Positions 12,997-63,678 of a stretch of DNA of 64,000 bases are shown here, one piece after another. The number at the start of each line of letters is the position of its first letter. Positions within the stretch are counted from its first letter, which is position 1. Source of the stretch: Levilinea sp. (GTDB lineage: Bacteria; Chloroflexota; Anaerolineae; Anaerolineales; Anaerolineaceae); assembly GCA_029975215.1 (NCBI GenBank), contig JARKPO010000007.1, forward strand, positions 1 through 64,000. The letters run 5' to 3'. A program made the position numbers and the translations under genes. Under the pieces are notes generated by a model. The model ran no database searches and was not told where the DNA came from. It was given only the letters and a program-made list of their open reading frames with translations.

Positions 12997-14877
12997 ATGA
13001 TTCGAACGGATGGCCCCTGGTTTAAAGACGAAGCCAACCGCCGCCTGCTGCTGCGGGGGATTAACCTCAGCGGCAGCACCAAAGTGCCCTTCACACCCAA
13101 CGGCGCAACCCACCTTCGCGAAAATTTCTTCGACCACCGCACTGTGTCTTTTGTCGGGAGGCCCTTTCCCCTGGCCGAGGCGGATGAACATCTGTCCCGT
13201 CTGCGCCGCTGGGGGTTCAATTTCCTGCGGTTTCTGGTCACCTGGGAAGCCATTGAGCATGCCGGGCCAGGCTCGTATGACGAAGCCTACCTGGATTATG
13301 TCGTGCAGGTCATCCGCAAGGCGGCCCAGCACGGCTTTGATGTGTTCATTGACCCCCATCAGGACGTGTGGAGCCGTTTCACTGGCGGCGACGGCGCCCC
13401 CGGCTGGACTCTGGAAGCGGTCGGCTTTGATCTGACCCGCCTGCACGAGACCGGCACAGCCTTTGTGCACGCCATGACGGCCGGCCCATACCCGCGCATG
13501 ATCTGGCCGACCAACTATCACAAGCTGGCCGCGGCCACCATGTTCACCCTGTTCTTCGCGGGCAACGACTTTGCCCCCAACACCCTGGTGGATGGGGTTC
13601 CTGTGCAGGAATTTTTGCAGGGCCACTACATCCACGCCATCCAGCAGCTGGCGATCCGTCTGAAGGACGAACCCAACGTGATCGGCTATGATTCGCTCAA
13701 CGAGCCGCACCGCGGCTTTGCGGGCCTGAGTAACCTGAACAGCATCCATCCCCCCTTCGATTTTGGCCCCAGCCCCACGCCTTTGCAGTCCTTTGCCCTG
13801 GGCGACGGCATCCCCCAGACGGTGGGGGTATATGAACAAGGCATCACCGGCCGCCGCCTGGTGGAGCGCCGCAAGCTGAACCCAGCAGGGGTGCGCGCCT
13901 GGCTGCCCGGCCGTGAATGCATCTGGCGATCTCACGGCGTGTGGGATGTGGACGTGAACGGCCAGCCCTACCTGCTGAAACCGGACTACTTTACCCATGT
14001 GGACGGTCGCAAGGTGGATTTCCCCCACGATTATCTGCGCCCCTTCGCCAACCGCTACGCCCGTGCCATACGCATGGTGCATCCCAACGCCATCCTGTTC
14101 CTGGAAGGCACCCTGGGCGATGAACTGCCTGTGTGGGGGCCGAACGACGCCGAAAATATCGTCAACGCCACCCACTGGTACGACGACATCACCCTCTTCC
14201 TCAAGGATTACCACAGTTGGTTCAGCGTGGACGTGGACAGCCGCCGCCTGGTTTTGGGAGCCGGCAACATCAATAAAATGCACGCGCGCCAACTGGGTCA
14301 GATCAAAGAAGTCTCACGTACCCGCCTGGGGGATGTGCCCACCCTGATTGGTGAATTTGGCACGCCTATGGACATGAAACGCAAGCACGCCTACCGCACC
14401 GGCGATTTTTCGGCTCAAATCCAGGCCCTGGACGATTCGTACCGCGCGCTGGAAGCCAATCTGCTCAACAGCACGCTGTGGAATTACACCCCAGACAATA
14501 ACAACACCCACGGCGATCTGTGGAACGAAGAGGACCTGTCCATTTTCAGCCGCGACCAGCAAAAAGACCCCAACGACCCCGATTCGGGCGGGCGGGCTTT
14601 ACCGGCGGCGGTGCGCCCCTACGCACGCAAAACCTCTGGTGATTTGCTGCGCATGTCTTTTGATTTGAAAAAGCGCGTGTTTGAAATGGCTTTTCGCCAC
14701 GATCCCCAGGTGACGGCCCCCACCGAGGTGTTTGTGCCCCGGCTGCACTATCCCAAAGGCTGCCAGGTGCAGGTTTCAGACGGCGAATACAGCCTGGATC
14801 TGGACGCCCAGGTATTGCTCTACCAGCCTTCAACGGAGCGCAGCGAACACACCCTGCGGCTGACTCCTCTGGGGTGA
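12997..14877 (+). CDS. Glycoside hydrolase family 5 protein, similar to the glucosylceramidase / steryl-glucosidase branch
   Basis: The 626-residue protein (ATG 12997, 5 nt after the E2 stop) has the GH5 catalytic pair Glu236 (YDSLNEPHRG) and Glu453 (PTLIGEFGTPMDM). The segment IDPHQDVWSRFTGGDGAPGW (residues 118-137) strongly recalls GH5_12 enzymes known mainly from fungi, which cleave glucosylceramide or steryl glucosides. The C-terminal 110 residues form a separate beta-rich domain. No signal peptide is evident, so it probably acts in the cytoplasm on a glycolipid or imported glycoside. The pairing with the dehydrogenase operon may be positional only, since no strong ribosome-binding site precedes it. 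Subfamily is from recall; family is secure. Confidence 0.85.
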   Translation: MIRTDGPWFKDEANRRLLLRGINLSGSTKVPFTPNGATHLRENFFDHRTVSFVGRPFPLAEADEHLSRLRRWGFNFLRFLVTWEAIEHAGPGSYDEAYLDYVVQVIRKAAQHGFDVFIDPHQDVWSRFTGGDGAPGWTLEAVGFDLTRLHETGTAFVHAMTAGPYPRMIWPTNYHKLAAATMFTLFFAGNDFAPNTLVDGVPVQEFLQGHYIHAIQQLAIRLKDEPNVIGYDSLNEPHRGFAGLSNLNSIHPPFDFGPSPTPLQSFALGDGIPQTVGVYEQGITGRRLVERRKLNPAGVRAWLPGRECIWRSHGVWDVDVNGQPYLLKPDYFTHVDGRKVDFPHDYLRPFANRYARAIRMVHPNAILFLEGTLGDELPVWGPNDAENIVNATHWYDDITLFLKDYHSWFSVDVDSRRLVLGAGNINKMHARQLGQIKEVSRTRLGDVPTLIGEFGTPMDMKRKHAYRTGDFSAQIQALDDSYRALEANLLNSTLWNYTPDNNNTHGDLWNEEDLSIFSRDQQKDPNDPDSGGRALPAAVRPYARKTSGDLLRMSFDLKKRVFEMAFRHDPQVTAPTEVFVPRLHYPKGCQVQVSDGEYSLDLDAQVLLYQPSTERSEHTLRLTPLG

Positions 14878-48494: not shown

Positions 48495-49649
48495 ATGTCC
48501 GATTCTTTACCCCTTGGCGCTGCGGTTGAACGCACCATGCGCCTGGTGGAGCTTTTGCTGTCTGCTCCCGACGGCCTTACCCCCCAGGAACTGCTTTTAC
48601 AGCTAGATATTTCGCGCAGCACCCTCTTTTTGCTCCTGCGCAGCATGAAGGCTTTGGGATATGTGGAGCAGGCCGAGAAGCGCGGCCGCTACTATCCCGG
48701 CCCGCGCCTGCAAACCTGGCAGCAGCCCAGCCCGCCCCTCTCACGCGATCTGCTCACCGCCTTTTACCAGGAGGGTGCGCGCCTCAACAACCCCGAGACC
48801 CTGGCGCTGACGGTGCGTGCCGAAGCGGGCGTGCTGGTGGTGGGGCAGGTGGAAGGCAGCCAGCAGGTGCGCAGCGTGCTTCAGCCCGGCCAGGTGTACA
48901 CCAACCTGCGTGCCGCGGCTGAAGTGTTGGCAGAATTCCCCAGCGCCGAGGTGCGGACCTACGGCTATCACTTTTATGAAAATGAAGACAGCCTGGAACT
49001 GGCCCTGCCGGTGTGTCCCGACGGCGCCACCCCCCAGGCTGCCCTGCTGCTCAGCGCGCCGCGCTTCCGCTGGCGTTCGGAAATTTTCCTGGAACGCCAT
49101 CTGCCCGAACAGCGCGCCCTGGCCGCCCGGCTTTCTCACCAAATGGGCGCGACCGCCTACACCCCCTTTCACTATCACCCCGCCGCCCAACTTCAGCCTT
49201 CCGGTCCGCTTTCACCCGAAGAGATTTCCAACTTCCTGCAAGGTCCCTGGACGGCGCGCCTGGCCTGTGTGCGTCCCGACGGCCGCCCCCATGTCATCCC
49301 CGTCTGGCAGGAATGGGACGGCAGCGCTTTTTGCGTGGTGGCCTGGCAGGGTTCGCAGTGGGCCGATTACGTCGCCCAGGATCCCAACGTCTCGCTGACG
49401 GTGGACGAGCCCTGGCCCCCGCTGCGGCGGGTGGTGGTGCGCGGGGTCGCCGAGCCGCTGGCCGCGGGCGACCCAGAGGCCCTGCACAAACTGGTGCGCT
49501 CGCTGGCCAGCCGCTATTTGGGTCAGCTGACCCCCGGCTTGCTGGAGCAGGTGCAGGGGGCTTTTCGCATTCAGCCACAGGCGGTACGCGGCTGGATGGG
49601 CGTGCCGGGGACACCCGCGCGAGGGTCAGCACATGCATCTGGAAATTGA
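48495..49649 (+). CDS. HTH regulator (IclR-like) fused to a PPOX-class flavin-binding split-barrel domain
   Basis: Residues 1-75 are an IclR-type winged helix (AAVERTMRLVELLLSAPDGL, then LDISRSTLFLLLRSMKALGY with wing AEKRGRYYPGPRLQTW). A middle region of about 150 residues is like a degenerate IclR effector domain. Residues about 235-375 are a pyridoxamine-phosphate-oxidase-like split barrel (FLQGPWTARLACVRPDGRPH, VIPVWQEWDG, WPPLRRVVVRGVAEPLA). Such barrels bind FMN, F420 or PLP. The gene is first in an operon with an NMT1/THI5-type ABC importer and overlaps the ATPase gene by 17 nt. The fusion suggests a vitamin- or cofactor-sensing regulator; the ligand is inferred. Confidence 0.8.
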   Translation: MSDSLPLGAAVERTMRLVELLLSAPDGLTPQELLLQLDISRSTLFLLLRSMKALGYVEQAEKRGRYYPGPRLQTWQQPSPPLSRDLLTAFYQEGARLNNPETLALTVRAEAGVLVVGQVEGSQQVRSVLQPGQVYTNLRAAAEVLAEFPSAEVRTYGYHFYENEDSLELALPVCPDGATPQAALLLSAPRFRWRSEIFLERHLPEQRALAARLSHQMGATAYTPFHYHPAAQLQPSGPLSPEEISNFLQGPWTARLACVRPDGRPHVIPVWQEWDGSAFCVVAWQGSQWADYVAQDPNVSLTVDEPWPPLRRVVVRGVAEPLAAGDPEALHKLVRSLASRYLGQLTPGLLEQVQGAFRIQPQAVRGWMGVPGTPARGSAHASGN

Positions 49650-50397
49650 TCACCTCTCCCACACCTTTGCGGGCCGCCCGCCGCGCGCAGCCCTGGCAGA
49701 CCTGAGCTTCGCGGTGCCCTCCGGCCAGTTCACCGCCGTCATCGGCCCCAGCGGCTGCGGCAAGTCTACGCTGCTGCGCCTGGCGGCAGGGCTGCTGCCG
49801 GTGCAGGAGGGAAGTTTGCGGCTGGGCGGGCAGACCCCGTCTCAGGCGGGCGCCCAGCGGAGCGTGGCCTGGATGGCGCAAAGCCCGGCCCTGCTGCCCT
49901 GGCGCACGGTGCGCGATAACGTTTTGCTGGCCTTGCGCTTTTTGCCCGCAGGCCATGCTGCCCGCCTTTCGGTGGACGAGGCACTGGCGCGCGTGGGGCT
50001 GTTGGATTCGGCCAACGCGTACCCTTTCATGCTCTCCGGCGGGATGCAGCAGCGCCTGGCCCTGGCGCGCACTTTGATGCTGGACGCCGGACTGTGGCTG
50101 ATGGACGAACCCTTCGCCGCCCTGGATGAGCTGACCCGCGAGCGCCTCACCCACGAATTGCTGAACTTGTGGCAGGCCCAGCGCCCCACCGTGCTGTGGG
50201 TTACCCACCACATTCAAGAAGCCCTGCGTCTGGCCGATCGGGTGGTGGTGCTTTCCCCGCGTCCGGCCCGCCTGATCCTGGACCTGCCGGTGGAGCTGCC
50301 GCGCCCGCGCCCCGAAAGCTCGCCCGCGTTTCAGGCGCTGTTGGGCCGTCTGCGCGCCGCCCTGGGCCTGGCCGCCGCGGCCGCGGAGGGCGCATGA
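49633..50397 (+). CDS. ABC importer ATP-binding protein (nitrate/taurine/vitamin-precursor type)
   Basis: The 254-residue ATPase has Walker A GPSGCGKST, a Q-loop in VAWMAQSPALLPW, signature LSGGMQQRLALAR, Walker B LWLMDEPFAALDE and H-loop LWVTHHIQEALRLAD. The sequence most resembles SsuB/TauB/ThiZ-type ATPases. It overlaps the regulator gene upstream by 17 nt and the permease gene by 4 nt (ATGA), so the operon is translationally coupled. Confidence 0.93.
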   Translation: MHLEIDHLSHTFAGRPPRAALADLSFAVPSGQFTAVIGPSGCGKSTLLRLAAGLLPVQEGSLRLGGQTPSQAGAQRSVAWMAQSPALLPWRTVRDNVLLALRFLPAGHAARLSVDEALARVGLLDSANAYPFMLSGGMQQRLALARTLMLDAGLWLMDEPFAALDELTRERLTHELLNLWQAQRPTVLWVTHHIQEALRLADRVVVLSPRPARLILDLPVELPRPRPESSPAFQALLGRLRAALGLAAAAAEGA

Positions 50398-51167
50398 AGC
50401 CCCGCGCCGTCTGGAACCCCCGCGATCTGCTCACTGCAGGGCTGATTGTGTTCACCTTCTTTCTGCTGTGGGAATTGAGCGTGCGCCTGCTCGACATGCC
50501 GGTGTACCTGCTGCCGTCCCCCAGCCTGGTGACCCTTACCCTGTTTCAAAACACGGGCCTGTATGCCCAGGCCACCGCGTTGACATTGGGAGAGGCTCTG
50601 GTGGGGCTGGTACTGGGGCTGTCGGCCGGTTTTTTGCTGGCCAGCATACTGGTTTTGCGCCCAGGGCTGGAAGGCGGCGTGATGACCCTGGCGATCCTGG
50701 TCAAATCCACCCCAATGGTGGCAATTGCCCCCCTGCTGACCCTGTGGATGGGCTTTGGGGTGCTGCCCAAAATCGTCATCACCGCCCTGATGACCTTTTT
50801 TCCCGTGCTGGTCAACATCCTCACCGGCCTGCAGCGCACCGACCCAGCCCTACTGGACCTGTTCCGCGCCTGGCACGCCAGCCGCTGGGAAACCTTTCTC
50901 TTTTTGCGCCTGCCCTCTTCCCTGCCTTACCTGTTCGCCGCGCTGAAGATCAGCGCGCCCCTGGCTCTCATCGGCGCGGTGGTGGCCGAATGGACGGGCG
51001 CCTCCGGCGGGCTGGGGCGCACCATGTGGCTGGCCTACACCAATCTCAACCTGCCTTATCTGTTTGCCGCCATCTTCATCCTGGCTGCAGTCGGCATGTT
51101 TCTGTATCAGTTTTTGGCCTGGCTGGAGGCCCGTGCGGTCTTCTGGCAGGTGCCCCCGCAAGACTAA
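50394..51167 (+). CDS. ABC importer permease (SsuC/ThiX/RibX-like)
   Basis: The start at 50394 overlaps the ATPase stop; the ORF-track start lies inside that gene. The 257-residue protein has about six membrane helices and the permease EAA-like loop FRAWHASRWETFLFLRLPSS. It belongs to the BPD_transp_1 group that serves NMT1/THI5-like binding proteins. It would form the channel with the ATPase upstream. Confidence 0.9.
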   Translation: MKPRAVWNPRDLLTAGLIVFTFFLLWELSVRLLDMPVYLLPSPSLVTLTLFQNTGLYAQATALTLGEALVGLVLGLSAGFLLASILVLRPGLEGGVMTLAILVKSTPMVAIAPLLTLWMGFGVLPKIVITALMTFFPVLVNILTGLQRTDPALLDLFRAWHASRWETFLFLRLPSSLPYLFAALKISAPLALIGAVVAEWTGASGGLGRTMWLAYTNLNLPYLFAAIFILAAVGMFLYQFLAWLEARAVFWQVPPQD

Positions 51168-51196
51168 CTCTTATCCAATGAATAGGGAAAACGAAG

Positions 51197-52192
51197 ATGA
51201 AAACGAAGATGTTATTTCGCTGGTTCTTGGGGATGGGGATGCTGGTATCGCTTTTGGGCTGCCGTCCGGCGCAGCCCGCCGCGCCCGATCAGCTGACCTT
51301 TATGGCTGGCTACAAACCGCAGGCCAACCTGCCCTTTGTGGGCGTGTATGTGGCCCAGGAGAAAGGTTTTTTTGCTGAAGAAAACCTCCAGGTCGACATT
51401 CAGCATTCTGCGGGGCAGGGGCAGCATTTACAGTTGGTGGCGGCGGGCGAAGTGCAGGTGACCACCCAGGACGCGGGTATTTTATTGCAGCGCCGTTCTA
51501 CCCCCGGGTTGCCGCTGGTCTCCATCGCCCTCATCGGCCAGCGCGGCCAGCAAGCCTTTGCAGCCCTGCAGTCCACCGGGCTGAAGACCCCTCAGGATTG
51601 GGCCGGTCATACCGTGGGGTACAAAGGCTCCCCTCCGCCGGAATTATTCGCGCTGATGGCGGCCAACAACTTGAGCCAGGACGACGTGCAGTTGGTGAAC
51701 GTTGGCTTTGACCCGCGCATCTTATCGGAAGGCAAAGTGGACGTCTACCCCGTGTTTAAGTCCAACGAACCCGATATGCTGCGTTCCTGGGGTTACGAGC
51801 TGACCCTGTGGGACCCCGCTGATTACGGCGTGCCCAGCCTGGGGCTGACCTACGTCACCAGTCAGGAAACCCTGGACACCCAGCCGGAGAAGTTGGCGCG
51901 TTTTCTGCGCGCCGCCCTGAAAGGCATAGACTACGCCAGCCAGAACCTGGATGAGGCTGTGAATATTGTGATGAAATACGCCGGAGAACAGGCTGATCCG
52001 AAGCACCAGCGCTTTATGCTGGAAACCGAGCTGGCCGACTACCGCAGCCCCGTCACCGAGGCGCACGGTGCCGGTTGGCAGACTGAAGAGCAGTGGTCAG
52101 CCCTGGCAGAAATGCTGCTGAAATATGAACTGGTGAAAGAAGTCAACGTGGCAGGTGCGTTCACCAACGAACTGCTGCCCCAAAGCAAGTAA
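51197..52192 (+). CDS. ABC importer substrate-binding lipoprotein, NMT1/THI5-like
   Basis: The 331-residue protein has a lipoprotein signal with lipobox VSLLGC (Cys22). The NMT1/THI5-like binding fold follows: LTFMAGYKPQANLPFVGVYV, AQEKGFFAEENLQVDIQHSA, then GHTVGYKGSPPPELFALMAA and VDVYPVFKSNEPDML. Family members bind thiamine precursors (ThiY), riboflavin (RibY) or sulfonates. RibXY systems have been described in Chloroflexi, and the flavin-type PPOX domain in the operon regulator makes riboflavin or a thiamine/PLP precursor plausible. No riboswitch was recognised before the operon. Confidence 0.88.
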   Translation: MKTKMLFRWFLGMGMLVSLLGCRPAQPAAPDQLTFMAGYKPQANLPFVGVYVAQEKGFFAEENLQVDIQHSAGQGQHLQLVAAGEVQVTTQDAGILLQRRSTPGLPLVSIALIGQRGQQAFAALQSTGLKTPQDWAGHTVGYKGSPPPELFALMAANNLSQDDVQLVNVGFDPRILSEGKVDVYPVFKSNEPDMLRSWGYELTLWDPADYGVPSLGLTYVTSQETLDTQPEKLARFLRAALKGIDYASQNLDEAVNIVMKYAGEQADPKHQRFMLETELADYRSPVTEAHGAGWQTEEQWSALAEMLLKYELVKEVNVAGAFTNELLPQSK

Positions 52193-53371: not shown

Positions 53372-53623
53372 ATGCAAGAACGTTCATTCTGGTTATCCTG
53401 GGCGCACAACTTGCAACGTTGGGGGCTGCGTGAACCCGTTGCAGCCTTACTTGAAGCTGGAGGACCGCTGTCGCTTCTCCTGGCGCAGGTGGTCTATTTG
53501 GGTCAACCTCTGTTAAGCGGATCTTCCTCAGCTGGGGCCTGGCAGGCTCTGGCGGAGATGTTGGAAGACCCGCTGCAAACTCGTTCTTTTGCCGCATTTT
53601 TGCGGGAGGAGGAGGTTGCGTAA
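53372..53623 (+). CDS. Small protein of unknown function, first gene of the 53-62 kb block
   Basis: The ATG at 53372 lies 6 nt after a TATACT box (53360-53365), pointing to a leaderless transcript; the ORF-track start is upstream of that box. The 83-residue product is probably all-helical, with two amphipathic stretches (ERSFWLSWAHNLQRWGLREP, then LSLLLAQVVYLGQPLLSG). It has an acidic C-terminus. Its stop overlaps the next start (TAATG). I recognise no family. Confidence 0.6.
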   Translation: MQERSFWLSWAHNLQRWGLREPVAALLEAGGPLSLLLAQVVYLGQPLLSGSSSAGAWQALAEMLEDPLQTRSFAAFLREEEVA

Positions 53624-54378
53624 TGGCATTATCCAGTATCCTCGGGATCGGGCTGGTGGGGCTGGGGCTGGCGCTGCTGTTCTTTTTTGCGCTGCCGGGC
53701 CGCCAGCGAGAGGCGCACGCCTGGCGCCCCATCCCGGCCATTCGCCGTCTCCGGCGCGCCATTGGTCTGGCGGTGGAGGACGGCAAGCGGCTGCACATTT
53801 CTTTGGGCAAAGCCAACCTGCTGACGCCGGATAACGGTTCAGCGTTGTCGGCTTTAAGCACCCTGGAGCGCATCGCGCGCATGAGCGTGGTCAGCGACCG
53901 CCCGCCGGTGGTCACCAGTGGGGATGGGGCTTTGGCCGTGCTCAGCCAGGACACCCTGCAGGCCGCCTACCGCACCAGCCACGCCCTGGACCAATATGAC
54001 CCCGACCGCGGCCGCTTGAGCGGGCCGACGGCGCTTTCGTATGTCGCCGGTTCACTGCCCGTCATCCGCGATGAGCAGGTTTCTACCAATATTTTGATGG
54101 GCAACTTTGGCCCGGAAGTGGCGTTGATGACCGAAGCCAGCGAAAAGGCCCGCGCCTTCACCCTGGCGGCCAGCGATTCGCTGTCAGCTCAGGCGGTGTT
54201 ATACGCTGCCGCGGAAGAGACCCTCATCGGCGAAGAACTGTTCGCCGCCCCGGCCTATCTTCAGGCCGGCGCCGCCCACCAGGCCAGTTTGCGCGTTCAA
54301 GACGTGCTGCGCTGGGTGCTGGTGGCCCTGCTGATCTTGGGGGCGCTGCTCAAAATGGCAGGAGTGGATTTGCTATGA
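53623..54378 (+). CDS. DUF6754-like membrane protein
   Basis: The 251-residue protein has an N-terminal membrane helix (SSILGIGLVGLGLALLFFFA) and a C-terminal one (VLRWVLVALLILGALLKMAG). They flank a soluble domain with LAVEDGKRLHISLGKANLLT and TNILMGNFGPEVALMTEASE. The pattern agrees with DUF6754 as I remember it. The function is unknown. The gene overlaps both neighbours (TAATG and ATGA), so it is co-translated in the block. Confidence 0.65.
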   Translation: MALSSILGIGLVGLGLALLFFFALPGRQREAHAWRPIPAIRRLRRAIGLAVEDGKRLHISLGKANLLTPDNGSALSALSTLERIARMSVVSDRPPVVTSGDGALAVLSQDTLQAAYRTSHALDQYDPDRGRLSGPTALSYVAGSLPVIRDEQVSTNILMGNFGPEVALMTEASEKARAFTLAASDSLSAQAVLYAAAEETLIGEELFAAPAYLQAGAAHQASLRVQDVLRWVLVALLILGALLKMAGVDLL

Positions 54379-55001
54379 GATCCCCCGTTACCACTGCCGT
54401 CGCCATTGGGTTAGGTATCGTCGCCCTCCTGGGCTATTTTGTGCCCTTGCCGTTTTTGGTAGATATCCAAAGCCTGCTGCTCAGTTGGGCGGTGATATTG
54501 GCCGCGGTGGCGGCTTTGGTGGCCATTTTCAACCTGGTGCGCGTTCACGTGCGCAAGCTGCGCGGCAGCCCGCCCAAACAGCGCGGAGATGGGTACAGCC
54601 TGCTGGTGCTGATTGGGTTTGCGGTCACTTTCCTGGCGGGGCTGCTGCTGACGCCGGACCATCCTCAGTTTCAGCAGGCGGTTTTGGCGGTGCAAACGCC
54701 GGTAGAAACCAGCCTGATCGCGGTGCTGGCGGTGACCCTGGCGTACGCCAGTCTGCGCCTGCTGCAGCGCCGCCCCAACTGGATGGGCATCCTGTTTGCC
54801 CTCAGCGCGGCCTTTTTCCTGATTCTGGCCAGCGGCGCCCTCTCGGGGCTGCGCGGCCTGCCGCTTTTGGGAGATCTGCTGGGCGTGGTGGAGCGTCTGC
54901 CGCTGGCGGGCGCGCGCGGGCTTTTATTGGGCATCGGCTTAGGCAGCCTCTTGACCGGGCTGCGTATTTTGATGGGCGCGGACCGCCCATATAGTGGGTG
55001 A
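54375..55001 (+). CDS. Multispanning membrane protein of unknown function
   Basis: The 208-residue protein has about six hydrophobic helices. A basic cytoplasmic loop lies between helices 2 and 3 (VRVHVRKLRGSPPKQRG). The C-terminal helices are Gly/Leu-rich (GARGLLLGIGLGSLLTGLRI). No known motif is seen. It overlaps the DUF6754-like gene by 4 nt and ends 3 nt before the zinc-ribbon gene. The paired membrane protein at 57825 has a similar size and plan. Confidence 0.6.
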   Translation: MRSPVTTAVAIGLGIVALLGYFVPLPFLVDIQSLLLSWAVILAAVAALVAIFNLVRVHVRKLRGSPPKQRGDGYSLLVLIGFAVTFLAGLLLTPDHPQFQQAVLAVQTPVETSLIAVLAVTLAYASLRLLQRRPNWMGILFALSAAFFLILASGALSGLRGLPLLGDLLGVVERLPLAGARGLLLGIGLGSLLTGLRILMGADRPYSG

Positions 55002-55003
55002 GC

Positions 55004-57817
55004 ATGGCTGAGAAGCATTGTCCGATTTGCGGAAGCAGCAATACCGAGGCGGCCACCAACTGCCAGTTTTGCGGCGCGCCCTTTGGGGACCTGCCGGCTC
55101 GCCCCGAGCCGGACGATACCCCGGATTGGCTGAAGGATTTCCAATCCACCGACAGCGGCGCCGCAGAACCAGAACCCGCCGCCCCGGCTGAATCGGGCCT
55201 GCCCGATTGGCTCTCCTCCATCCGCCAACGCTCTGCCGCAGAAGAAGCGCCGGGGGTGGAGGGTCTTTTGGGCGCGGAGGAAGAGGAATCCGGCGCGGTG
55301 AAAGCCGACCTGCCCGACTGGCTTTCAGATTTGCGCCCCAGCGCGGCCGAACCGCCCGCCCCAGCGGCGAGCGCGGCTGAACCCGAAGAAGACGACACCG
55401 CCTGGCTGAAGGGCCTGGGCGATTGGCAAAACGGCCCCCTGGGCGGAGATTCCAGCACCTCGGCCACCGAACCTGAGGGGGATGATTGGCTGCGTAATTT
55501 GGGGGGCGGGCTGGACGAGATCCCCGCTGAGCCGCCTTTACCGGTGCAGCCAGCAGGAAACCAGGATTGGCTGGGCGACTTGCGCAATTTGTCAACTGAA
55601 CGCGCTGCTGCCCCCTCAGAAGAACCCTCGGCGTTGGAAGGGCTTCCCTCCTGGTTGGAGGATACCCCCGCACCGCAAACCTCCGCTGCTTCCGAAGACA
55701 ATTTCCAGGATTGGCTGGCGGATGTTCCCGAAGAACTGCCGGCCCAGCCCAGCAGCGCGGCCGAGACCGGGCTGGGGGATTTGCCGGATTGGATGCAGAC
55801 TCCTCCGGCCGCTGACGAGACGCCCATCGCTGCCGGAAACGAGCCAGATTGGCTGAGCGCATTCGCCGCGGAAACCTCCGCGCAGGAGACTCCCGCAGAA
55901 GCCGCCCCTGCCTCAGACGACACCCCCGACTGGCTCAAATCTTTCGCCAGCGAGATCCCCGCGCCAGAAACGCCCGCCGCTGCCGGAAACGAGCCAGATT
56001 GGCTGAGCGCATTCGCCGCGGACACCTCCGCGCAGGAGACTCCCGCAGAAGCCGCCCCTGCGGCTGCAGAGGACGGAACCCCCGACTGGCTGAAAGAATT
56101 CGCCAGCGAGACCCCCGCGCCAGAAACGCCTGCCGCTGCCGGAAACGAGCCGGATTGGCTGAGCGCATTCGCCGCGGATACCTCCGCGCAGGAGACCCCC
56201 GCAGAAGCCGCCCCTGCGGCTGCAGAGGACGGAACTCCCGACTGGCTGAAAGAATTCGCGGCCGACTTCTCTGCTCAGGAAACGCCGGAAGCTGAACCCC
56301 CAGCCCCCGCTTCCCCAGGTGAGACTCGCGTTTTCCAGGGCGAGACGCGCGCATTTGACCTGCCGGAAAGCGAACCGTCCTCCGGCGAGACCGCCGATTG
56401 GCTGCGCGCCTTTGCCAGCGAAGACAGCAGCGTATTCGCCACCCCAACCTCAGACACCGCCCCCATCAGCGGCGAGCCAGTTCCAGCCTTCGCCCTGGGA
56501 GATGGAGCCGATCTGCCCGATTGGCTTTCTGAAGTCGACCTATCGGAAATGAACCTGGAAAGCGACACTTCCGGCGATGCGGCCCTGGCTTCTGCGGATC
56601 AGGTTCCCGATTGGCTGCGAGATAAGGCCAGCCAGGCCGGGGTAGAACTGAGCGGTGAAACTGAGGCTGAAGCGGAAGCCGCAGCCCCTGCAGGCGAACT
56701 GGCCCCGGCGGCGCTGCCTGCCTGGTTGCAGGCCATGCGGCCGGTAGAAGCCGTCATGCAAACCGGGGCCGAAGGCGCGCTGGTGGAAAGTGAACATGTA
56801 GAAAAAGCCGGGCCGCTGGCCGGCATTCAGGGCATTTTGCCCACGCTGGATCTGACCCGCCAATACCGCAAGCCTCCGCGCTATTCGTCCAAGCTAAAAA
56901 CCTCCGAAAAACAGCGCGAACATGCCGAACTGCTGGACGCATTGGTCTCCGGTGAATCTCAGCCGCAGCAAGTGCAGCGCGAATTTGTGCAAGCCCCCCA
57001 ACGGGCCATGCGCATTGGCATCGGCCTGCTGCTGATCCTGGTGGTGGTGCTCACCTACCTGTTCGGCGGCGTCCCGGCGAACCCTGCTGCGCCCGTGGAG
57101 GTGCTGAACTTCAACAACGCCGTGGGCGCGCTGCCCTCAGGCAGCACCGTGCTGCTGGCAGTGGATTATGCCCCGGCCTATTCGGGTGAAATGCGGCTGG
57201 CCGCCACGCGGGTGGTGCAGATGCTCATGGAAAAGGGCCTGCGCCTGGCCCTGGTTTCTACCCAGGTGACCGGGCCGGTGCTGGGCGCGGATCTGCTGCG
57301 CAGCGCCGCGGCGGAACTGCCCGCGGGCAGTTTTAATTTCGATGAACAAAGCGCCAACCTGGGCTATTTGCCGGGCGGCATCGCCTCGCTGCGCGAATTT
57401 GCCAACCAACCGCGCCGGGCCGTCCGCTGGCCGGGCATGTGGGACCGGCCCGCAGTGCAGCAGGTGAACGCTCTGACGGATTTCTCTGCGATTATCGTCC
57501 TGACCGATCAAGTGGAAGGCGGGCGGGCCTGGATGGAACAGGTGCAGCCCCTCTACGGCGAGCGTCCCTTCCTGCTGGTCTCCAGCGCCCAGGCGGCGCC
57601 GGTGCTTCAGGCCTATGTCAACGAGGGTCAGGCGGATGGATTGGTGGCCGGTTTCACCGGCGGCATGGCGTTTGCCGGATTATCCGGGCAGACGCCGGCT
57701 GGTTTAGGGGGATGGTGGGGCAGCTACCGCGCCGGGTTGTTCCTGGCGGTGGTGCTGATCTTCTTGGGGGTGATCCTTCAGGCGCTGATCCGCCTGAGCA
57801 CCCGCCGGAAAGCGTGA
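55004..57817 (+). CDS. Zinc-ribbon protein with PDWL-type repeats and two membrane helices
   Basis: The 937-residue protein opens with a zinc ribbon of two Cys pairs (HCPICGSSNTEAATNCQFCG). About 570 acidic, Pro/Ala-rich residues follow, carrying roughly fourteen copies of a [D/E]-x-P-D-W-L motif. Three late copies lie in near-identical units of 50-52 residues. After a basic helix (SSKLKTSEKQREHAELLDAL), a membrane helix (MRIGIGLLLILVVVLTYLFG, near 670) leads to an outer domain of about 230 residues. A C-terminal helix, LFLAVVLIFLGVILQAL, ends in RKA. The long disordered arm would be cytoplasmic and could tether several copies of a partner. No family function is known to me. Confidence 0.7.
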   Translation: MAEKHCPICGSSNTEAATNCQFCGAPFGDLPARPEPDDTPDWLKDFQSTDSGAAEPEPAAPAESGLPDWLSSIRQRSAAEEAPGVEGLLGAEEEESGAVKADLPDWLSDLRPSAAEPPAPAASAAEPEEDDTAWLKGLGDWQNGPLGGDSSTSATEPEGDDWLRNLGGGLDEIPAEPPLPVQPAGNQDWLGDLRNLSTERAAAPSEEPSALEGLPSWLEDTPAPQTSAASEDNFQDWLADVPEELPAQPSSAAETGLGDLPDWMQTPPAADETPIAAGNEPDWLSAFAAETSAQETPAEAAPASDDTPDWLKSFASEIPAPETPAAAGNEPDWLSAFAADTSAQETPAEAAPAAAEDGTPDWLKEFASETPAPETPAAAGNEPDWLSAFAADTSAQETPAEAAPAAAEDGTPDWLKEFAADFSAQETPEAEPPAPASPGETRVFQGETRAFDLPESEPSSGETADWLRAFASEDSSVFATPTSDTAPISGEPVPAFALGDGADLPDWLSEVDLSEMNLESDTSGDAALASADQVPDWLRDKASQAGVELSGETEAEAEAAAPAGELAPAALPAWLQAMRPVEAVMQTGAEGALVESEHVEKAGPLAGIQGILPTLDLTRQYRKPPRYSSKLKTSEKQREHAELLDALVSGESQPQQVQREFVQAPQRAMRIGIGLLLILVVVLTYLFGGVPANPAAPVEVLNFNNAVGALPSGSTVLLAVDYAPAYSGEMRLAATRVVQMLMEKGLRLALVSTQVTGPVLGADLLRSAAAELPAGSFNFDEQSANLGYLPGGIASLREFANQPRRAVRWPGMWDRPAVQQVNALTDFSAIIVLTDQVEGGRAWMEQVQPLYGERPFLLVSSAQAAPVLQAYVNEGQADGLVAGFTGGMAFAGLSGQTPAGLGGWWGSYRAGLFLAVVLIFLGVILQALIRLSTRRKA
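55835..56290 (+). repeat. Near-identical in-frame repeats inside the PDWL protein gene
   Basis: A unit beginning GGAAACGAGCC starts at 55835, 55985 and 56141, giving periods of 150 and 156 bp (50 and 52 codons). Copies differ by only a few bases, so the expansion is recent or homogenised. Copy number should vary between related strains. Confidence 0.8.
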
Positions 57818-57824
57818 GGCCCGG

Positions 57825-58490
57825 ATGTCAATGGATTTGATTTGGACGGCGGTGGGCTTTTTGCTGACGGTGTGCGTGTTGAGCTACCTGTTTGGGGATA
57901 ACCCGCTCTTCCGCCTGGCTACGTCTCTATTCGTGGGCGTGGCGGCGGGGTATGCGGCTGTGCTTCTGATTTATCAGGTGCTGCTGCCGCGCCTGGTGCT
58001 GCCTTTGCTGCAAGGCTCGCTGGCCGAACGCGGCCTGCTGGTCATCCCTCTGGTGCTCAGCGTATTACTGCTCTTCAAGCTCTCTCCGCGCTTCACCCGC
58101 CTGGGCAACCTCTCGATGGGAGTGATTGTGGGCGTGGGCGCGGGGGTGTTGGTGGGCGGCACGGTGTTGGGAACCCTGCTGGGCCAAACCCGCGCAGCGG
58201 TGGACGCCTTTGCCCTGCGGGGCACGGCCAGCCCGATGGTGCTCTTATTCGAGGCCGTTCTGTTTCTGATCGGCACGGTATCCACCCTGGTGTACTTCCA
58301 TTTTGGCGTCAAGCCGCGCCCCAACCAGCCCGCCCGGCGGCCTTCATGGATGGAATTCACGGCGAGCATTGGTCAGGTGTTCCTGGCAGTGACTTTGGGC
58401 GCTTTGTTTGCCGGGGTGTTCGCCGCGGCACTGGCCGCATTAATTGACCGTGCGGATTTCCTCTTCCGTGCGGTTCAAATGCTATTCTGA
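57825..58490 (+). CDS. Multispanning membrane protein of unknown function
   Basis: The 221-residue protein has about six membrane helices. It includes a Gly/Val-rich pair (MGVIVGVGAGVLVGGTVLGT) and a basic loop (FGVKPRPNQPARRPSW). I recognise no family. It starts 8 nt after the zinc-ribbon gene and ends 10 nt before the MutL-like gene. Its size and plan are similar to the protein encoded at 54375, so the two may form a membrane complex with the zinc-ribbon protein. Confidence 0.6.
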   Translation: MSMDLIWTAVGFLLTVCVLSYLFGDNPLFRLATSLFVGVAAGYAAVLLIYQVLLPRLVLPLLQGSLAERGLLVIPLVLSVLLLFKLSPRFTRLGNLSMGVIVGVGAGVLVGGTVLGTLLGQTRAAVDAFALRGTASPMVLLFEAVLFLIGTVSTLVYFHFGVKPRPNQPARRPSWMEFTASIGQVFLAVTLGALFAGVFAAALAALIDRADFLFRAVQMLF

Positions 58491-58499
58491 GTGTAGCCC

Positions 58500-60227
58500 A
58501 TGAGCCCTTCGATCATTGATGCTCAATCCATCCTGGCGGTTGAAATTGGCACGGTCACGACCCGCGCGCTCTTGTTTGACGTGGTGGAGGGGCAGTACCG
58601 TTTCATCGCCCAGGGCAGCGCCCCCAGCACGGTCAACGCGCCCTTCCGTGAAGCCGGGGAGGGCATTCACCTGGCGGTGAACCGCCTGGAAGAAATCACC
58701 GGCCGCACCTTGATGAACCTGAAGGGCGAGTTGATTCTGCCAGTGCAAAGCGACAACAGCGGTGTGGACCGGCTGGTGCTCACCTACACCGCCGGACCGG
58801 CGCTGCGCGTGGTGGTGGCGGGGCTGCTGGCGGATGTTTCCCTGGAAAGTGCACGCAACCTGGCGGCCACCCTGCCGGTGCAGGTGGTGGAAACACTGGG
58901 CCTCAACGATACCCGCAGCCTGGATTTGCAGATGCAGGCCCTGATCGCGGCCGAGCCAGATCTGGTGCTGCTGGCGGGCGGCAGTGAACACGGCGCCAGC
59001 CGCTCGGTGTTTAAGCTGGCAGAGCTGATCAGCCTGGCCTACCGTGTGCTGCCGCCAGACCGCCGCCCGCATGTGCTCTACGCGGGCAATCAGGCCCTGG
59101 CCAAAAAGATCAAAGAGGGCCTGGAGCGCACGGTACACACGCTGACCGCCCCCAATGTACGCCCGTCGGTGGATGTTGAAGACCTGGCTCCCGCTGAAAG
59201 CGCGCTCAGCGAAGCAGCGGCCAATATCCGCTACGCACAGATCGGCGGTCTGCAAAATTGGGGTTCCATCAGCAGCGCCCTGCCCTTGCCGGGTTCATTG
59301 GCCTTTGGGCGCATGATCCGCTTCCTTAGTCACATTGGGGACGCGGTGAAGGGCGTGTTGGGGGTGCAATTGGGCTCCGGCAGCACCACCCTGGCGATGG
59401 GCAAGGGCGGTAATCTGGCGCTGGAAGTCTTCCCCTACAGCAGCGGCCGCGGTGCTTCTTTGGTGTTGGAGCACAGCGCCTTAGAAGACATCACCCAATG
59501 GCTGCCGATGCACATGCCCGATGTGGTGGCGCGAGACTATCTGGTGCAGAAAACCCTTTACCCCCAGGTGATGCCCACCACCAGCGAGACGCTGGCTCTG
59601 GAATTGGCGCTGGCGCGCCAGGCCCTGCGCCTTTCCATGCAGCAGATGCTGGCCCGCCACCCGCTGTACAACCTATCCTACGAGCCCATTCTGGCGGGCG
59701 GGGCGGTGTTGACCCAGGCCCCCCAGCCAGCCCACGCCCTGTTGGCGCTCTTAGACGGACTGCAGCCGGTGGGGGTGACCACCCTGTTCCTGGATCAAAA
59801 CGAACTGCTCACCAGCCTGGGGGCCGCCGCGCAGATCAACTCGCTGCTGCCCGTTCAGGTGATCGAATCCGGCGCGCTGCTCAACCTGGGCACGGTCATC
59901 TGCCCGGTGAGCGACGCCCGCTACGGCACGCCCATTCTGCGCGCCCGCCTGGAATATGAGCGCGGGGGTGAAAATGTGGTGGAGGTGCGTCAGGGTTCTT
60001 TGGTGACTTTGCCCCTGCAAAATGGGCAGGTGGCCAATCTGCACCTCCAGCCTTTGCGCCGTGTGCAGATTGACCCGCGCGGCAAGCCCGGCCCGGCCAA
60101 ATTCCAAATCGTGGGCGGGGCGTGCGGTGCGGTGATTGACGCGCGCGGCCGGCCGCTGGTTCTGCCCAAAGATTCGGCCCGCCGCCGCGAGATGATCAAG
60201 AAATGGAGCCTGGCTTTCGGCATCTAG
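58500..60227 (+). CDS. MutL/GlmL-like ASKHA-fold protein
   Basis: The 575-residue protein resembles the GlmL/MutL group named after the glutamate mutase accessory protein. Its N-terminal phosphate loop is AVEIGTVTTRALLFDVVEG and a second nucleotide motif is GVQLGSGSTTLAMGKGGNL. An internal segment, AAEPDLVLLAGGSEHGASRS, is also typical. No glutamate mutase subunits (glmS/glmE) or other B12 enzymes lie in the window. Here it sits among membrane-protein genes, so it may be an ATP-binding partner of that assembly rather than a reactivase. That is inference; the family match is by recall. Confidence 0.72.
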   Translation: MSPSIIDAQSILAVEIGTVTTRALLFDVVEGQYRFIAQGSAPSTVNAPFREAGEGIHLAVNRLEEITGRTLMNLKGELILPVQSDNSGVDRLVLTYTAGPALRVVVAGLLADVSLESARNLAATLPVQVVETLGLNDTRSLDLQMQALIAAEPDLVLLAGGSEHGASRSVFKLAELISLAYRVLPPDRRPHVLYAGNQALAKKIKEGLERTVHTLTAPNVRPSVDVEDLAPAESALSEAAANIRYAQIGGLQNWGSISSALPLPGSLAFGRMIRFLSHIGDAVKGVLGVQLGSGSTTLAMGKGGNLALEVFPYSSGRGASLVLEHSALEDITQWLPMHMPDVVARDYLVQKTLYPQVMPTTSETLALELALARQALRLSMQQMLARHPLYNLSYEPILAGGAVLTQAPQPAHALLALLDGLQPVGVTTLFLDQNELLTSLGAAAQINSLLPVQVIESGALLNLGTVICPVSDARYGTPILRARLEYERGGENVVEVRQGSLVTLPLQNGQVANLHLQPLRRVQIDPRGKPGPAKFQIVGGACGAVIDARGRPLVLPKDSARRREMIKKWSLAFGI

Positions 60228-60246
60228 CCCAGCAACTGCGGCTGAT

Positions 60247-61347
60247 GTGCAGATTGGTACAAAGATTGCACCTTATCCTTTGGGATTAAACACTATGCAA
60301 GCACCTGTCACCCACATTTTGGCCCTCACCAACCTGCGCCGGGCGCGGCTGCTTCCGGCGGCAGGCAAAGTGTTGGTCAAGCAAGGTCAAAAGGTTTCCC
60401 CCAACGATGTGATTGCGGAAACCGTGCTGCACCCGCGCCACATGGTGTTTGACGTGCGCCAGGCGCTGGGCATCACCCGTCCGGCGCAGCTCAGCCAGGC
60501 CATCGAGCGCCGCGTGGGCGACAAGGTGGAGGTGGATGACGTGCTGGCGCGCTCTGGCGGCCTGTTTAAGCGCGTCCTGCGCGCACCGGTGGCCGGACAG
60601 ATTTCCATCATCGCCGGTGGGCGGATTGTGATGGAGGTGGACAGCCCCCTCTTCCAACTGCGCGCCGGACTGGCAGGCATCATCACCGAGATCATCCCCG
60701 AACGCGGCGCCATTCTGGAAGCCAGCGGGGCCTTGGTGCAGGGGGCCTGGGGCAACGGGCGTATCGATTCCGGCGTGCTGCTTTCGCTGGCCGCCGCCCC
60801 CGAAGATATGCTCACCCGCGAGCGCCTGGATGTGAGCATGCGCGGGGCGGTGGTGGTGGCCGGGCACTGTGCCCAGGCAGATGCGATCCGTGCGGCCAAC
60901 GAGCTGCCCCTGCGCGGCCTGATTTTGGGCAGCGCCACGGCGGATCTGCTGCCGGCCCTGCAAACCGCGCTCTTTCCCATCCTCTTAACCGAAGGTTTCG
61001 GCCGCATTCCCATGAATCTGGCCGCCCACCGCATTTTGACCACCAACGAGAAGCGCGACACCGCGGTCAACGCCACCATGTGGAACGCATTTACCGGCGA
61101 GCGCCCCGAAGTGCTCATCCCCCTGCCCGCCGCAGGCAGCGTGCCCGCCGAAAGCGTCACCCTGAAAGAGGGCCTGCACGTGCGCATTTTGGGGATGCAG
61201 CAAGCCGCGCGGGTGGGGACGATTGTGTCCCTGCCGGCAGAGCTGGTGACTTTGCCGAACGGCGTGCGCGCCCGCGTGGCGCAGGTCAAATTGGAAAACG
61301 ATGAGCAGTTCGCCGTGCCGCTATGCAATCTGGATGTGCTAGAATAA
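60247..61347 (+). CDS. Barrel-domain protein with lipoyl-like and KOW-like segments, unknown function
   Basis: The 366-residue protein has a region like a lipoyl/biotinyl half-barrel (AGKVLVKQGQKVSPNDVIAE) and another around RVLRAPVAGQISIIAGGRIV. A Rossmann-like middle follows (MRGAVVVAGHCAQADAIRAA). The C-terminus is KOW-like (GLHVRILGMQQAARVGTIVS, then CNLDVLE). No attached lysine motif is evident. No membrane helix is seen. It follows the MutL-like gene by 19 nt and may work with it. An in-frame ATG at 60295 is an alternative start. Confidence 0.6.
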   Translation: MQIGTKIAPYPLGLNTMQAPVTHILALTNLRRARLLPAAGKVLVKQGQKVSPNDVIAETVLHPRHMVFDVRQALGITRPAQLSQAIERRVGDKVEVDDVLARSGGLFKRVLRAPVAGQISIIAGGRIVMEVDSPLFQLRAGLAGIITEIIPERGAILEASGALVQGAWGNGRIDSGVLLSLAAAPEDMLTRERLDVSMRGAVVVAGHCAQADAIRAANELPLRGLILGSATADLLPALQTALFPILLTEGFGRIPMNLAAHRILTTNEKRDTAVNATMWNAFTGERPEVLIPLPAAGSVPAESVTLKEGLHVRILGMQQAARVGTIVSLPAELVTLPNGVRARVAQVKLENDEQFAVPLCNLDVLE

Positions 61348-61423
61348 TCTTGCACGGGCCTGCCGTGCCCTGGCAGTGCGCCGGGCGGGGCTGTCTGGCA
61401 ACCTGAATTGGAGGAGGACAAGC

Positions 61424-62050
61424 ATGAGCAACTTTGACGACAGCGTTTTTGAGGGTTTTGAAGAAGAGCCCCCCGAAGCTCCCAAAGAAAGTAAGGGCGG
61501 CGGCAACAACAACCGCACGTTCTTGATCGCCGTGGGCATCATTGCCGCAGTCACCGTTTTGGTGGTGATCGTGGGCGGCATCTTGCTGGTGGCGCTGCGT
61601 TCCGGCGGAACGAGCACCGCCATGCAGCAGGCCGCGCAGATCAACGCGCAGAACACGGCCACTTCGATGGCGGCCACCAGTGTGGCGGCCACCGAGGCCT
61701 TCATGCGCATTCCCACCAACACCCCCCAGCCCACCGCCACGCCCGAACCGACCAAAACGCCGGTAGTGGTCTTCCCCACCGACACCCCGCAGCCCACCGA
61801 AGAACCTCCGCTGGCAGCTGCAGACGCGGCAGCAGTGGAATCTTCGGCGCGCACGCAGACGGTGGCGGCCTTGCTGACCCAGGCCGCGGCGGGCACCACC
61901 CCCACCGTTCCCGGCCCCACGCCCACCGCCCTGCCCAATACCGGCTTCATGGATGAAGTCGGCCTGCCGGGCATGCTGGGCCTGTCGGCGCTGCTGATTG
62001 TGGTCATCTTCCTGGCGCGCCGCCTGCGCTTCTCGGCCCACCAATCCTAA
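61424..62050 (+). CDS. Surface protein with N-terminal membrane helix, Pro/Thr stalk and LPNTG sorting signal
   Basis: The ATG at 61424 has GGAGGAGG 7 nt upstream. The 208-residue protein has an acidic cytoplasmic start and a membrane helix at about 32-57. An Ala/Thr-rich segment and a Pro/Thr stalk (PTATPEPTKTP, TPQPTEEPP) follow. Then come LPNTG at 170-174, a hydrophobic helix (GMLGLSALLIVVIFLA) and RRLR. This is a complete sortase-type tail, but no sortase gene is in the window. Having both an N-terminal anchor and LPNTG is unusual. It is the last gene before a strong terminator. Confidence 0.75.
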   Translation: MSNFDDSVFEGFEEEPPEAPKESKGGGNNNRTFLIAVGIIAAVTVLVVIVGGILLVALRSGGTSTAMQQAAQINAQNTATSMAATSVAATEAFMRIPTNTPQPTATPEPTKTPVVVFPTDTPQPTEEPPLAAADAAAVESSARTQTVAALLTQAAAGTTPTVPGPTPTALPNTGFMDEVGLPGMLGLSALLIVVIFLARRLRFSAHQS

Positions 62051-62119
62051 GACCCTCCCTTCTCAGGCTGCCCGGCCCCTGGCATTGAGCCGCGCAGGCA
62101 GACGAAAGATGCACTTCCG

Positions 62120-62151
62120 CTTGGGCGCCCGTTGCGGCGCCCAAGTTTTTT
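62120..62151 (+). terminator. Rho-independent terminator at the end of the 53-62 kb block
   Basis: A perfect 10-bp stem (CTTGGGCGCC and GGCGCCCAAG) with a 6-nt loop runs into TTTTTT on the plus strand. Confidence 0.9.
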
Positions 62152-62217: not shown

Positions 62218-63678
62218 CTAGGCCACGCTGTTGGCCACTTCTTCGCCAAAGCCCAGCAAAGCCTTCACCATTGCCTGGCTGCGCCCTTCGGCGTACACGC
62301 GCAGCACCGGTTCCGTTCCCGACGGGCGGATCAGCAGCCACGAGTCATCGTTCATCACATATTTGACCCCGTCCAGGGTGCTCACCTGGGCCACGCCTTC
62401 CCCGCCAATTTCAGCCGGAGCTTCATCGCGCAGACGCTGGGTAATGGCCGATTTGGACACCGGGTGGCGCAGGCGCAGGTCTTTGCGCTCGTAGAAGGCC
62501 GGGCCGACGTCTTCCAACAGGTCGTCCACCAGCTCGTTGAGGGGCGCGCGCGCGGCGGCCACAATCTCGGCCAGCAGCAGGCCCATGATGGGACCGTCAC
62601 CTTCAGGAATGTGCCCCTTGAAGGAGATGCCGCCCGATTCTTCGCCGCCGATGAGCACATCCTCTTTCATCATGTAATCGGCGATGTGGTTAAAGCCCAC
62701 CGGAGTCTCATACAGGGGCAGCCCGTAGCGCGCCGCCAGCCGGTCCACCATGCGCGAGGTGGACACCGTGCGCACCACCGCACCACGCCAGCCACGCTTT
62801 TCCACCAGATAGCGCAGCGACAGGGCGATGATCTTGTGCGGATCCACGAAGTTGCCGCGCCCGTCCATGGCCCCAATGCGGTCGGCGTCGCCGTCCGTGG
62901 CCAGGCCAAAATCGCCAAAGCCAGAGCTGATGGCCCCCGCCAGGGGAGCCAAATAGCGGGCGATGGGTTCTGGGTGGACCCCGCCGAAGCCGGGGTTCAT
63001 CTCGCCGCGAATTTCATACACCTCGCAGCCTGTCCCCTGCAGCGCCCCGCGGATGACCCCGCGCCCCGATCCATACATCGAATCAACCACCACGCGCAGC
63101 TTGCCTTCGGCGATGACGTCGAAATTGATCAGCTGGCGCACATGATCCAGATACGAGGGGATGGGGTTAAAGCGCTGGATGCGCTTCATTTGCAGGGCCT
63201 GTTCGTAATCCATCAGGTTTGGCCCGCGGCTCTGAATTTCGTTGTCATTCAGATACACTTCCACCTGGCGGCACTGTTCCGGCGAGGCCGAACTGCCGGT
63301 GGCGGCCTTCAGCTTGACGCCGTTGTAGCGCGGCGGGTTGTGCGAAGCGGTGATCATCACCCCGCCCACCGCCTTTTGCTGGTAAACGGCGTACGAAATG
63401 GCCGGGGTGGGCGCATCCGATTGAGCCAACAGCACATTAAAGCCGTTGGCTGCCAACACGCGGGCCACATCCGTGGCGTAGCGGTCGGAAAGGAAGCGTG
63501 TGTCGAACCCCACCACGATCTTGCGCGGGTCAAACCCATTGCTGGGCGGATTTCCGTTGTGCCAGGTGGAAGATGCGATGGCGTCAGCAATCGCCTGGGC
63601 GACCATACGCAGATTATTAAAAGTGAACGTGTCTGAAATGACAGCACGCCAGCCGTCGGTGCCAAAATGGATTGGCAT
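62218..63678 (-). CDS. Phosphoglucomutase/phosphomannomutase family protein
   Basis: The 486-residue protein has the alpha-D-phosphohexomutase landmarks: phosphoserine Ser112 in ITASHNPPRYNG, metal loop ATDGDADRIG, sugar loop GGEESGGIS and phosphate loop RPSGTEPVLRVYAEG. It interconverts 1- and 6-phosphates of glucose, mannose or glucosamine. GlmM is less likely because the serine loop is the PGM/PMM form; the preferred sugar cannot be fixed from sequence. It probably supplies sugar phosphates for glycan synthesis. Confidence 0.93.
   Translation of the reverse strand: MPIHFGTDGWRAVISDTFTFNNLRMVAQAIADAIASSTWHNGNPPSNGFDPRKIVVGFDTRFLSDRYATDVARVLAANGFNVLLAQSDAPTPAISYAVYQQKAVGGVMITASHNPPRYNGVKLKAATGSSASPEQCRQVEVYLNDNEIQSRGPNLMDYEQALQMKRIQRFNPIPSYLDHVRQLINFDVIAEGKLRVVVDSMYGSGRGVIRGALQGTGCEVYEIRGEMNPGFGGVHPEPIARYLAPLAGAISSGFGDFGLATDGDADRIGAMDGRGNFVDPHKIIALSLRYLVEKRGWRGAVVRTVSTSRMVDRLAARYGLPLYETPVGFNHIADYMMKEDVLIGGEESGGISFKGHIPEGDGPIMGLLLAEIVAAARAPLNELVDDLLEDVGPAFYERKDLRLRHPVSKSAITQRLRDEAPAEIGGEGVAQVSTLDGVKYVMNDDSWLLIRPSGTEPVLRVYAEGRSQAMVKALLGFGEEVANSVA

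Follow-up and report, generated by a model that had tools for sequence, protein, structure and literature searches.

What do eight tightly packed genes of no described function do in a member of the Anaerolineae? The genes, here called g1 to g8, lie at positions 53372-62050 (+) of a 64,000-nucleotide stretch of Levilinea sp. DNA (contig JARKPO010000007.1, positions 1 to 64,000; hereafter the window). A first-pass annotation, made from the letters of the window, had described them as a packed same-strand block that ends at a strong terminator, and the eight open reading frames (ORFs) were found where it had placed them, followed by an 11-pair terminator-like stem (Table 1). Comparison within Chloroflexota identifies the eight-gene block as one conserved unit, far beyond chance, that fits no known kind of system compared here. 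The explanation we favor, tentatively and at somewhat less than an even chance, is that its products assemble into a multivalent scaffold complex that is tethered to the membrane and has a dedicated regulator of the ASKHA type (ATP-binding fold).

Within the genus, family, and order of the source genome, 56 of 61 genomes contain g6. The surroundings of g6-positive genomes, together with eight database loci, gave a set of 62 Anaerolineae-type loci, 45 of which contain g1-g8 complete, colinear, and on one strand. Thirteen of the remaining loci are truncated at contig ends (L004 included), and four are without only the small g1 and/or g8. Across the 62 loci, genes are spaced by a median of 2 nt and by 150 nt or less in 99% of cases. 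The scattering of genes in relatives, which the first-pass annotation had named as the finding that would speak against a joint role, is not what these loci contain. The unit consists of eight genes because flanking genes are kept only in subsets of loci, and those downstream lie on the other strand. Upstream, the shared neighbor is a PIG-L deacetylase; downstream, convergent opposite-strand genes often follow the operon (62218-63678 (-) in the window, 13466-14653 (-) in locus L001) and encode a phosphohexomutase in 33 loci and a DUF389-like P/T-rich membrane protein in 27.

All eight genes are real and maintained because the ratio of nonsynonymous to synonymous substitution rates (dN/dS), computed against the congener Levilinea saccharolytica (L001), is 0.04-0.13 for every one of them, which indicates purifying selection; g7 is 96% identical between the two. 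Neighboring ORFs in the window overlap or are spaced by at most 76 nt. The junctions measure -1 nt (g1/g2), -4 nt (g2/g3 and g3/g4), +7 nt (g4/g5), +9 nt (g5/g6), and +19 nt (g6/g7), and the g7/g8 junction is +28 nt with the GTG start of g8 or +76 nt with its ATG start. For g7, the start is probably the ATG at 60295, as homologues begin at that methionine.

The first-pass annotation had read g4 as a giant zinc-ribbon/PDWL-repeat membrane protein, and this description stands: the window protein has a CxxC-x10-CxxC ribbon and 19 W[LM] motifs. In g4 homologues, we counted 839 W[LMI] pairs versus 119 expected. The motif consensus is an acidic residue at position -4 relative to the tryptophan, L/V/I at -3, P at -2 (78%), D/A at -1, then W, L, and Q/R/K at +2. 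The protein is 939 residues long in the window versus 1130 in L001, and the repeat region is the sole large difference between the congeners. A genome-wide scan for PDWL-repeat proteins returned g4 as the only cluster among the places listed, and a g4-type motif also occurs in the C-terminal tail of two Chloroflexia-type g6 proteins (L104 and L107). The positive-inside rule predicts a cytosolic location for the zinc ribbon and the repeats and an outside location for the Rossmann-like domain. An AlphaFold2 (AF2) model of the C-terminal half has a mean predicted local distance difference test (pLDDT) score of 78, with values of ~90 or more over most of the Rossmann-like domain. A PDB fold search with the g4 C-domain (g4C) returned only generic Rossmann-type matches with a TM-score of ~0.3. 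A relationship between g2 and g4C as Rossmann domains was ruled out (12% probability over 29 columns).

The motif and its neighbor g6 recur well beyond the Anaerolineae. In a panel of 301 genomes of Chloroflexota, the phylum to which the genome comparisons were confined, g2/DUF6754 is found in 67 genomes, g4C in 69, and both in 66 (Fisher p ~1e-61, relatedness ignored). The g6 family is wider, with matches in 180 panel genomes at E<=0.001, some true GlmL relatives among them, and every genome with g4C has a g6-family match. Some families have g1-g6 with g7 present or absent, and others have only g6-g7, without g1-g5; class labels beyond Anaerolineae, such as Chloroflexia-like, are guesses from tree position. 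This wider comparison indicates g6-g7 as the broadest unit, in most cases together with a motif-repeat zinc-ribbon protein, and g1-g3 and g5, the multispanning membrane genes, as an addition that several families lack. Where g1-g5 are missing, a motif-repeat zinc-ribbon protein often lies directly 5' of g6-g7, and a zinc-ribbon/LPxWL protein stands directly upstream of g6 in L157-L161, L164, L167, L168, L172, L174, and L175. In families with only g6-g7, these upstream proteins are ~500-1200 residues long, with an N-terminal zinc ribbon as in g4 and no membrane spans. The motif takes the form SLIDxxxLPxW[LM]R in these soluble counterparts, which end in a basic or amphipathic C-terminal helix, e.g., KKRGIFEAIRDWLSR. 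The hydrophobic moment is 0.73-0.81 for four of nine such tails and 0.687 for a fifth, compared with a background 95th percentile of 0.69. Two families look like intermediates: that of L168, with a single transmembrane anchor, and that of L164, with two zinc ribbons, two LPxWLR motifs, and a transmembrane segment.

This modular make-up bears on whether the genes are merely co-transcribed and held together by operon inertia, with no joint function. The parts do dissociate, in that g1-g5 and g7 are each absent in places while g6 stays. However, the near-perfect co-occurrence of g2 and g4C, a gene order conserved across families, and the recurrence of motif proteins directly 5' of g6 in different architectures make inertia highly improbable as an account of the block.

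The N-terminal half of g6 is a clear member of the MutL/GlmL superfamily (PF13941, 178 bits versus a cut-off of 27, E 3.5e-52). The first-pass annotation had called it an orphan MutL/GlmL-like ASKHA protein, which agrees with the PF13941 match, the failure to reach GlmL cut-offs (NF040745, 57 versus 475; TIGR01319, 42.8 versus 204), and the lack of any B12-dependent mutase, both in the block itself and among the neighbors that recur at the loci. The g6 tree mostly tracks family grouping, and three GlmL-type proteins form their own supported group. Membership in PF13941 raises the question of whether g6 acts as a reactivase or chaperone for an enzyme encoded outside the operon, like the GlmL-type accessory proteins of coenzyme-B12 mutases. 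The same genome does have a true GlmL-type paralogue, located in a D-ornithine 4,5-aminomutase operon with a racemase and a diaminopentanoate dehydrogenase (L084:3324-11348, G000:C13). Unlike the known accessory proteins, g6 is extended by a C-terminal domain, lies near no mutase, and falls far below the GlmL cut-offs, which makes a reactivase role very unlikely.

A further comparison in the first-pass annotation, with PilM, FtsA, and MamK, is not supported as a kinship of g6: Pfam and NCBIfam return only MutL-type families for g6, and a bona fide FtsA of the same genome, found by a TIGR01174 search, is encoded outside the window (G000:C20:97021-98124). The ASKHA fold class presumed for g6 and its setting beside membrane platform proteins resemble FtsA and PilM, whereas g6 matches no FtsA or PilM model and has no PilN/PilO/PilQ, FtsZ, or MinCD neighbors. 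By analogy, the block may still work in a PilM/FtsA/MamK-like way.

The barrel/KOW-like protein of the first-pass annotation corresponds to g7, in which both domain types were found. Among 21 members, 15 have a barrel-sandwich Pfam domain and 8 have a KOW domain; the α/β middle region appears to be novel. The two small domain types are shared with RnfC/NqrA, but g7 is without their Fe-S, SLBB, or NADH-binding domains and scores 11 bits against full-length rnfC (TIGR01945, cut-off 246). No Fe-S or flavin family is among the Pfam matches of the block. A 'lysozyme' PDB match of g7, which depends on a QGxWGNG stretch of 25 residues recurring within a single chain, was taken as chance.

In the scaffold complex that we favor, g4 would be the hub. 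Its cytosolic half, predicted to be acidic and disordered, would present the zinc ribbon and ~19 copies of [D/E][L/V]PxWL[R/K/Q], and it would be anchored by two membrane helices that bracket the extracytoplasmic Rossmann-like domain. The many motif copies would bind a folded partner and cluster it at the membrane, and g6 would load, release, or reorganize this clustered partner in an ATP-dependent manner; the soluble g7, with its barrel-sandwich and KOW domains, would serve g6 as an adaptor. Together with g4, the proteins g2, g3, and g5 (with g1) would form an integral membrane complex in Anaerolineae, in Chloroflexia-like lineages, and in several others. The outer part, anchored in the membrane or cell wall, would be g8. 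Multivalent hubs of comparable design are PopZ, CsoS2, and EPYC1, in each of which a single short motif recurs many times along an acidic or disordered chain. The g4 repeat chain near a membrane or partner is similar, whereas the zinc ribbon and extracytoplasmic domain of g4 set it apart; we know of no sequence kinship between g4 and these three proteins.

What the sequences establish is that the genes are conserved together and in order and that purifying selection acts on them, along with the domain make-up, the motif statistics, and the modular exchange of the anchor described above. Because the anchor is exchangeable, with an amphipathic helix in place of a transmembrane segment, while the zinc ribbon, the motifs, and g6-g7 stay, motif tethering beside g6 would be the conserved point. 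Direct binding, ATP use, clustering, and any specific cellular process are inferred. Several observations weigh against the proposed scaffold complex. In family f31, the g4 of the g1-g5 set is short and lacks zinc ribbon and motifs, yet g6-g7 are kept, and families f33, f44, f46, f70, and f87 have g6-g7 with no motif protein nearby; g6-g7 must therefore have a motif-independent role. In Chloroflexia-like genomes, g7 is missing from the cluster. The phosphate-loop residues of g6 are degenerate in a few members (L077 and L079), and thus ATP use by g6 is not universal. The tail of Anaerolineae g6, considered as an FtsA-like membrane helix, was not clearly above background, and the binding partner of the motif is a proposed one.

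The g4 motif also raises the possibility of a link to cell division. In the same genomes, the FtsZ tail sequence is DLDIPAFLR, and the g4 motif matches this peptide register for register, with W for F; the best copies are DLDVPTWLR, ELDLPAWLR, and DMDIPEWLR. FtsA, SepF, ZipA, MinC, and other partners recognize the FtsZ tail as a short linear motif (PMC9939409). The genome of the window encodes two full FtsZ proteins (G000:C20:95875-96861, L126; G000:C10:17524-18450), as do most Anaerolineae genomes checked, and the canonical peptide is kept in the tails read in the panel for both FtsZ groups. In 31 Chloroflexota genomes of the panel, FtsA was found in 30 (the exception, with no FtsA above cut-off, is family f66, G183) and SepF (PF04472) in none, and therefore an FtsZ-tail binder exists in these genomes. 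The presence of FtsA also rules out g6 as a stand-in for a missing FtsA.

The g4 repeats might mimic the C-terminal peptide of FtsZ and bind FtsA or a different tail binder, in which case the operon would serve the divisome as a positioning or regulatory module specific to Chloroflexota. A matrix trained on the FtsZ tails distinguishes g4 from flanking proteins with an area under the curve (AUC) of 0.86 and from shuffled g4 with an AUC of 0.81, the typical copy being weak. The median best g4 copy scores 7.9 bits, however, a value reached by ~5% of unrelated flanking proteins. Moreover, the motif is short and has W in all repeats versus F/Y in the surveyed FtsZ tails, no divisome gene lies in the cluster, and g6 is not FtsA. 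The likeness lies in an acidic-aliphatic-P-x-aromatic-L-basic pattern in the same register, but g4 has internal tandem copies in a membrane protein, whereas FtsZ has a single copy at the end of a GTPase. We consider this divisome module unlikely, and the likeness suggests a lead toward division rather than proof. A broader version, also unlikely in our estimate, is a phylum-wide Chloroflexota module in which tandem FtsZ-tail mimics on a membrane scaffold, together with a dedicated non-FtsA ASKHA protein, would serve to position or regulate either division or some other membrane-bound assembly.

The remaining proteins place the block at the membrane. As the first-pass annotation had proposed, g1 is a mostly helical protein of 83 residues and g2 is DUF6754-like (PF20539, 102 bits versus a cut-off of 27, E=3.5e-29). 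Invariant residues of g2 are E52, G54, G160, E204, and R230, and its ~190-residue middle domain is predicted from charge to be cytosolic; the AF2 model (pLDDT 53) is too poor for structural use. No match to a known family was found for g1, g3, g5, or the g4 C-domain; small membrane proteins of a similar kind may also occur in other phyla. Although alike in size, as noted at first pass, the multispanning g3 and g5 have no detectable homology, and paralogy was ruled out (hhalign probability 0.3%). The protein described as an LPNTG surface protein, g8, does have this motif in the window, followed by a hydrophobic span and a basic tail (TIGR01167, 17.2 bits versus a cut-off of 15.9), but exact LPxTG is kept in just 39 of 60 homologues. 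The stretch GFADEVGLPG just after it is conserved, and the N-terminal span resembles an anchor rather than a cleaved signal. In L033, L035, and L054, a second, longer g8-like protein (~400-430 residues) is encoded on the opposite strand, 1.7-2.4 kb downstream of g8.

These features support a membrane-centered block that combines an ASKHA protein with a repeat protein bearing a zinc ribbon and with a surface/membrane protein, and the block may form an envelope-spanning machine. A surface-export or envelope-assembly machine, with g2-g5 as channel or platform, g8 as sortase-anchored outer end, and g6 as motor, would accommodate the four integral membrane proteins, the extracytoplasmic domain, the LPxTG-type g8, and the seven sortase-type places in the genome. 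Against such a machine, Pfam and NCBIfam searches of the block reveal neither a secretion ATPase nor a pilin, a glycosyltransferase, or a substrate. In addition, g8 is absent or undetected in most clusters beyond Anaerolineae, one third of its homologues have a degenerate LPxTG, and other families use g6 and g7 with no membrane set. We regard export or envelope assembly of this kind as distinctly unlikely.

Our literature search found no publication on DUF6754, on the motif, or on these genes as a set. The phylum Chloroflexota is large and for the most part uncultured, and its envelope and cell division have, to our knowledge, been little studied. A gene order kept across Anaerolineae, a core present in many other families, and products with no listed function point to an unrecognized basic cellular process. 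Because the anchors are swapped while the motif and its ASKHA partner stay fixed, simple and direct experiments are feasible in cultivable members.

Table 1 Features of the g1-g8 operon in the window.
Feature	Position	Strand	Description
g1	53372..53623	+	83 aa, mostly helical; profile homologue heads the cluster in most relatives
g2	53623..54378	+	DUF6754; N- and C-terminal membrane helices flank a ~190-aa domain
g3	54375..55001	+	~6-span membrane protein
g4	54998..57817	+	939 aa: zinc ribbon, acidic repeat region, transmembrane segment, extracytoplasmic α/β domain, transmembrane segment
g4 zinc ribbon CPIC-x10-CQFC	55019..55072	+	CxxC-x10-CxxC, residues 8-25; conserved in most g4 homologues
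g4 repeat region	55115..56737	+	19 W[LM] motifs within the first 639 residues; consensus [DE][LVI]P[DA]WL[QRK]
g4 DNA tandem array	55820-56259	+	156-bp tandem array; recent; accounts for part of the W[LM] repeats
g4 Rossmann-like α/β domain	57146..57649	+	Predicted extracytoplasmic; AF2 model residues 78-245
g5	57825..58490	+	~6-span membrane protein
g6	58500..60227	+	575 aa, MutL/GlmL superfamily ASKHA; extra C-terminal ~110 aa ending in conserved G-x-V-I-D-A-R-G-R-P
g7	60295..61347	+	Soluble; barrel-sandwich (RnfC_N/NqrA-like), α/β middle with conserved WGN, C-terminal KOW; ORF opens at 60247
g8	61424..62050	+	Two transmembrane segments, P/T-rich extracytoplasmic linker, LPNTGFMDEVGLPG...RRLR tail; alternative GTG start at 61376
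Terminator-like hairpin	62119-62146	+	After g8; stem of 11 pairs, then TTTTTG

Relatives of the block were sought on plasmid and viral contigs and none were found; a PADLOC search for known anti-phage defense systems gave only a weak g8 match (E 0.003), located in its low-complexity part. A single in-frame TAG occurs within the matched stretch of g4C in G167, G136, G334, and G269 and of g6 in G077, and it may mark the end of a gene within the match or reflect a frameshift or an assembly error. Upstream of the block and separate from it, window positions 49633-52192 encode an ABC-type ATPase, a permease, and a substrate-binding lipoprotein that, by eye, is NMT1/SsuA-like.

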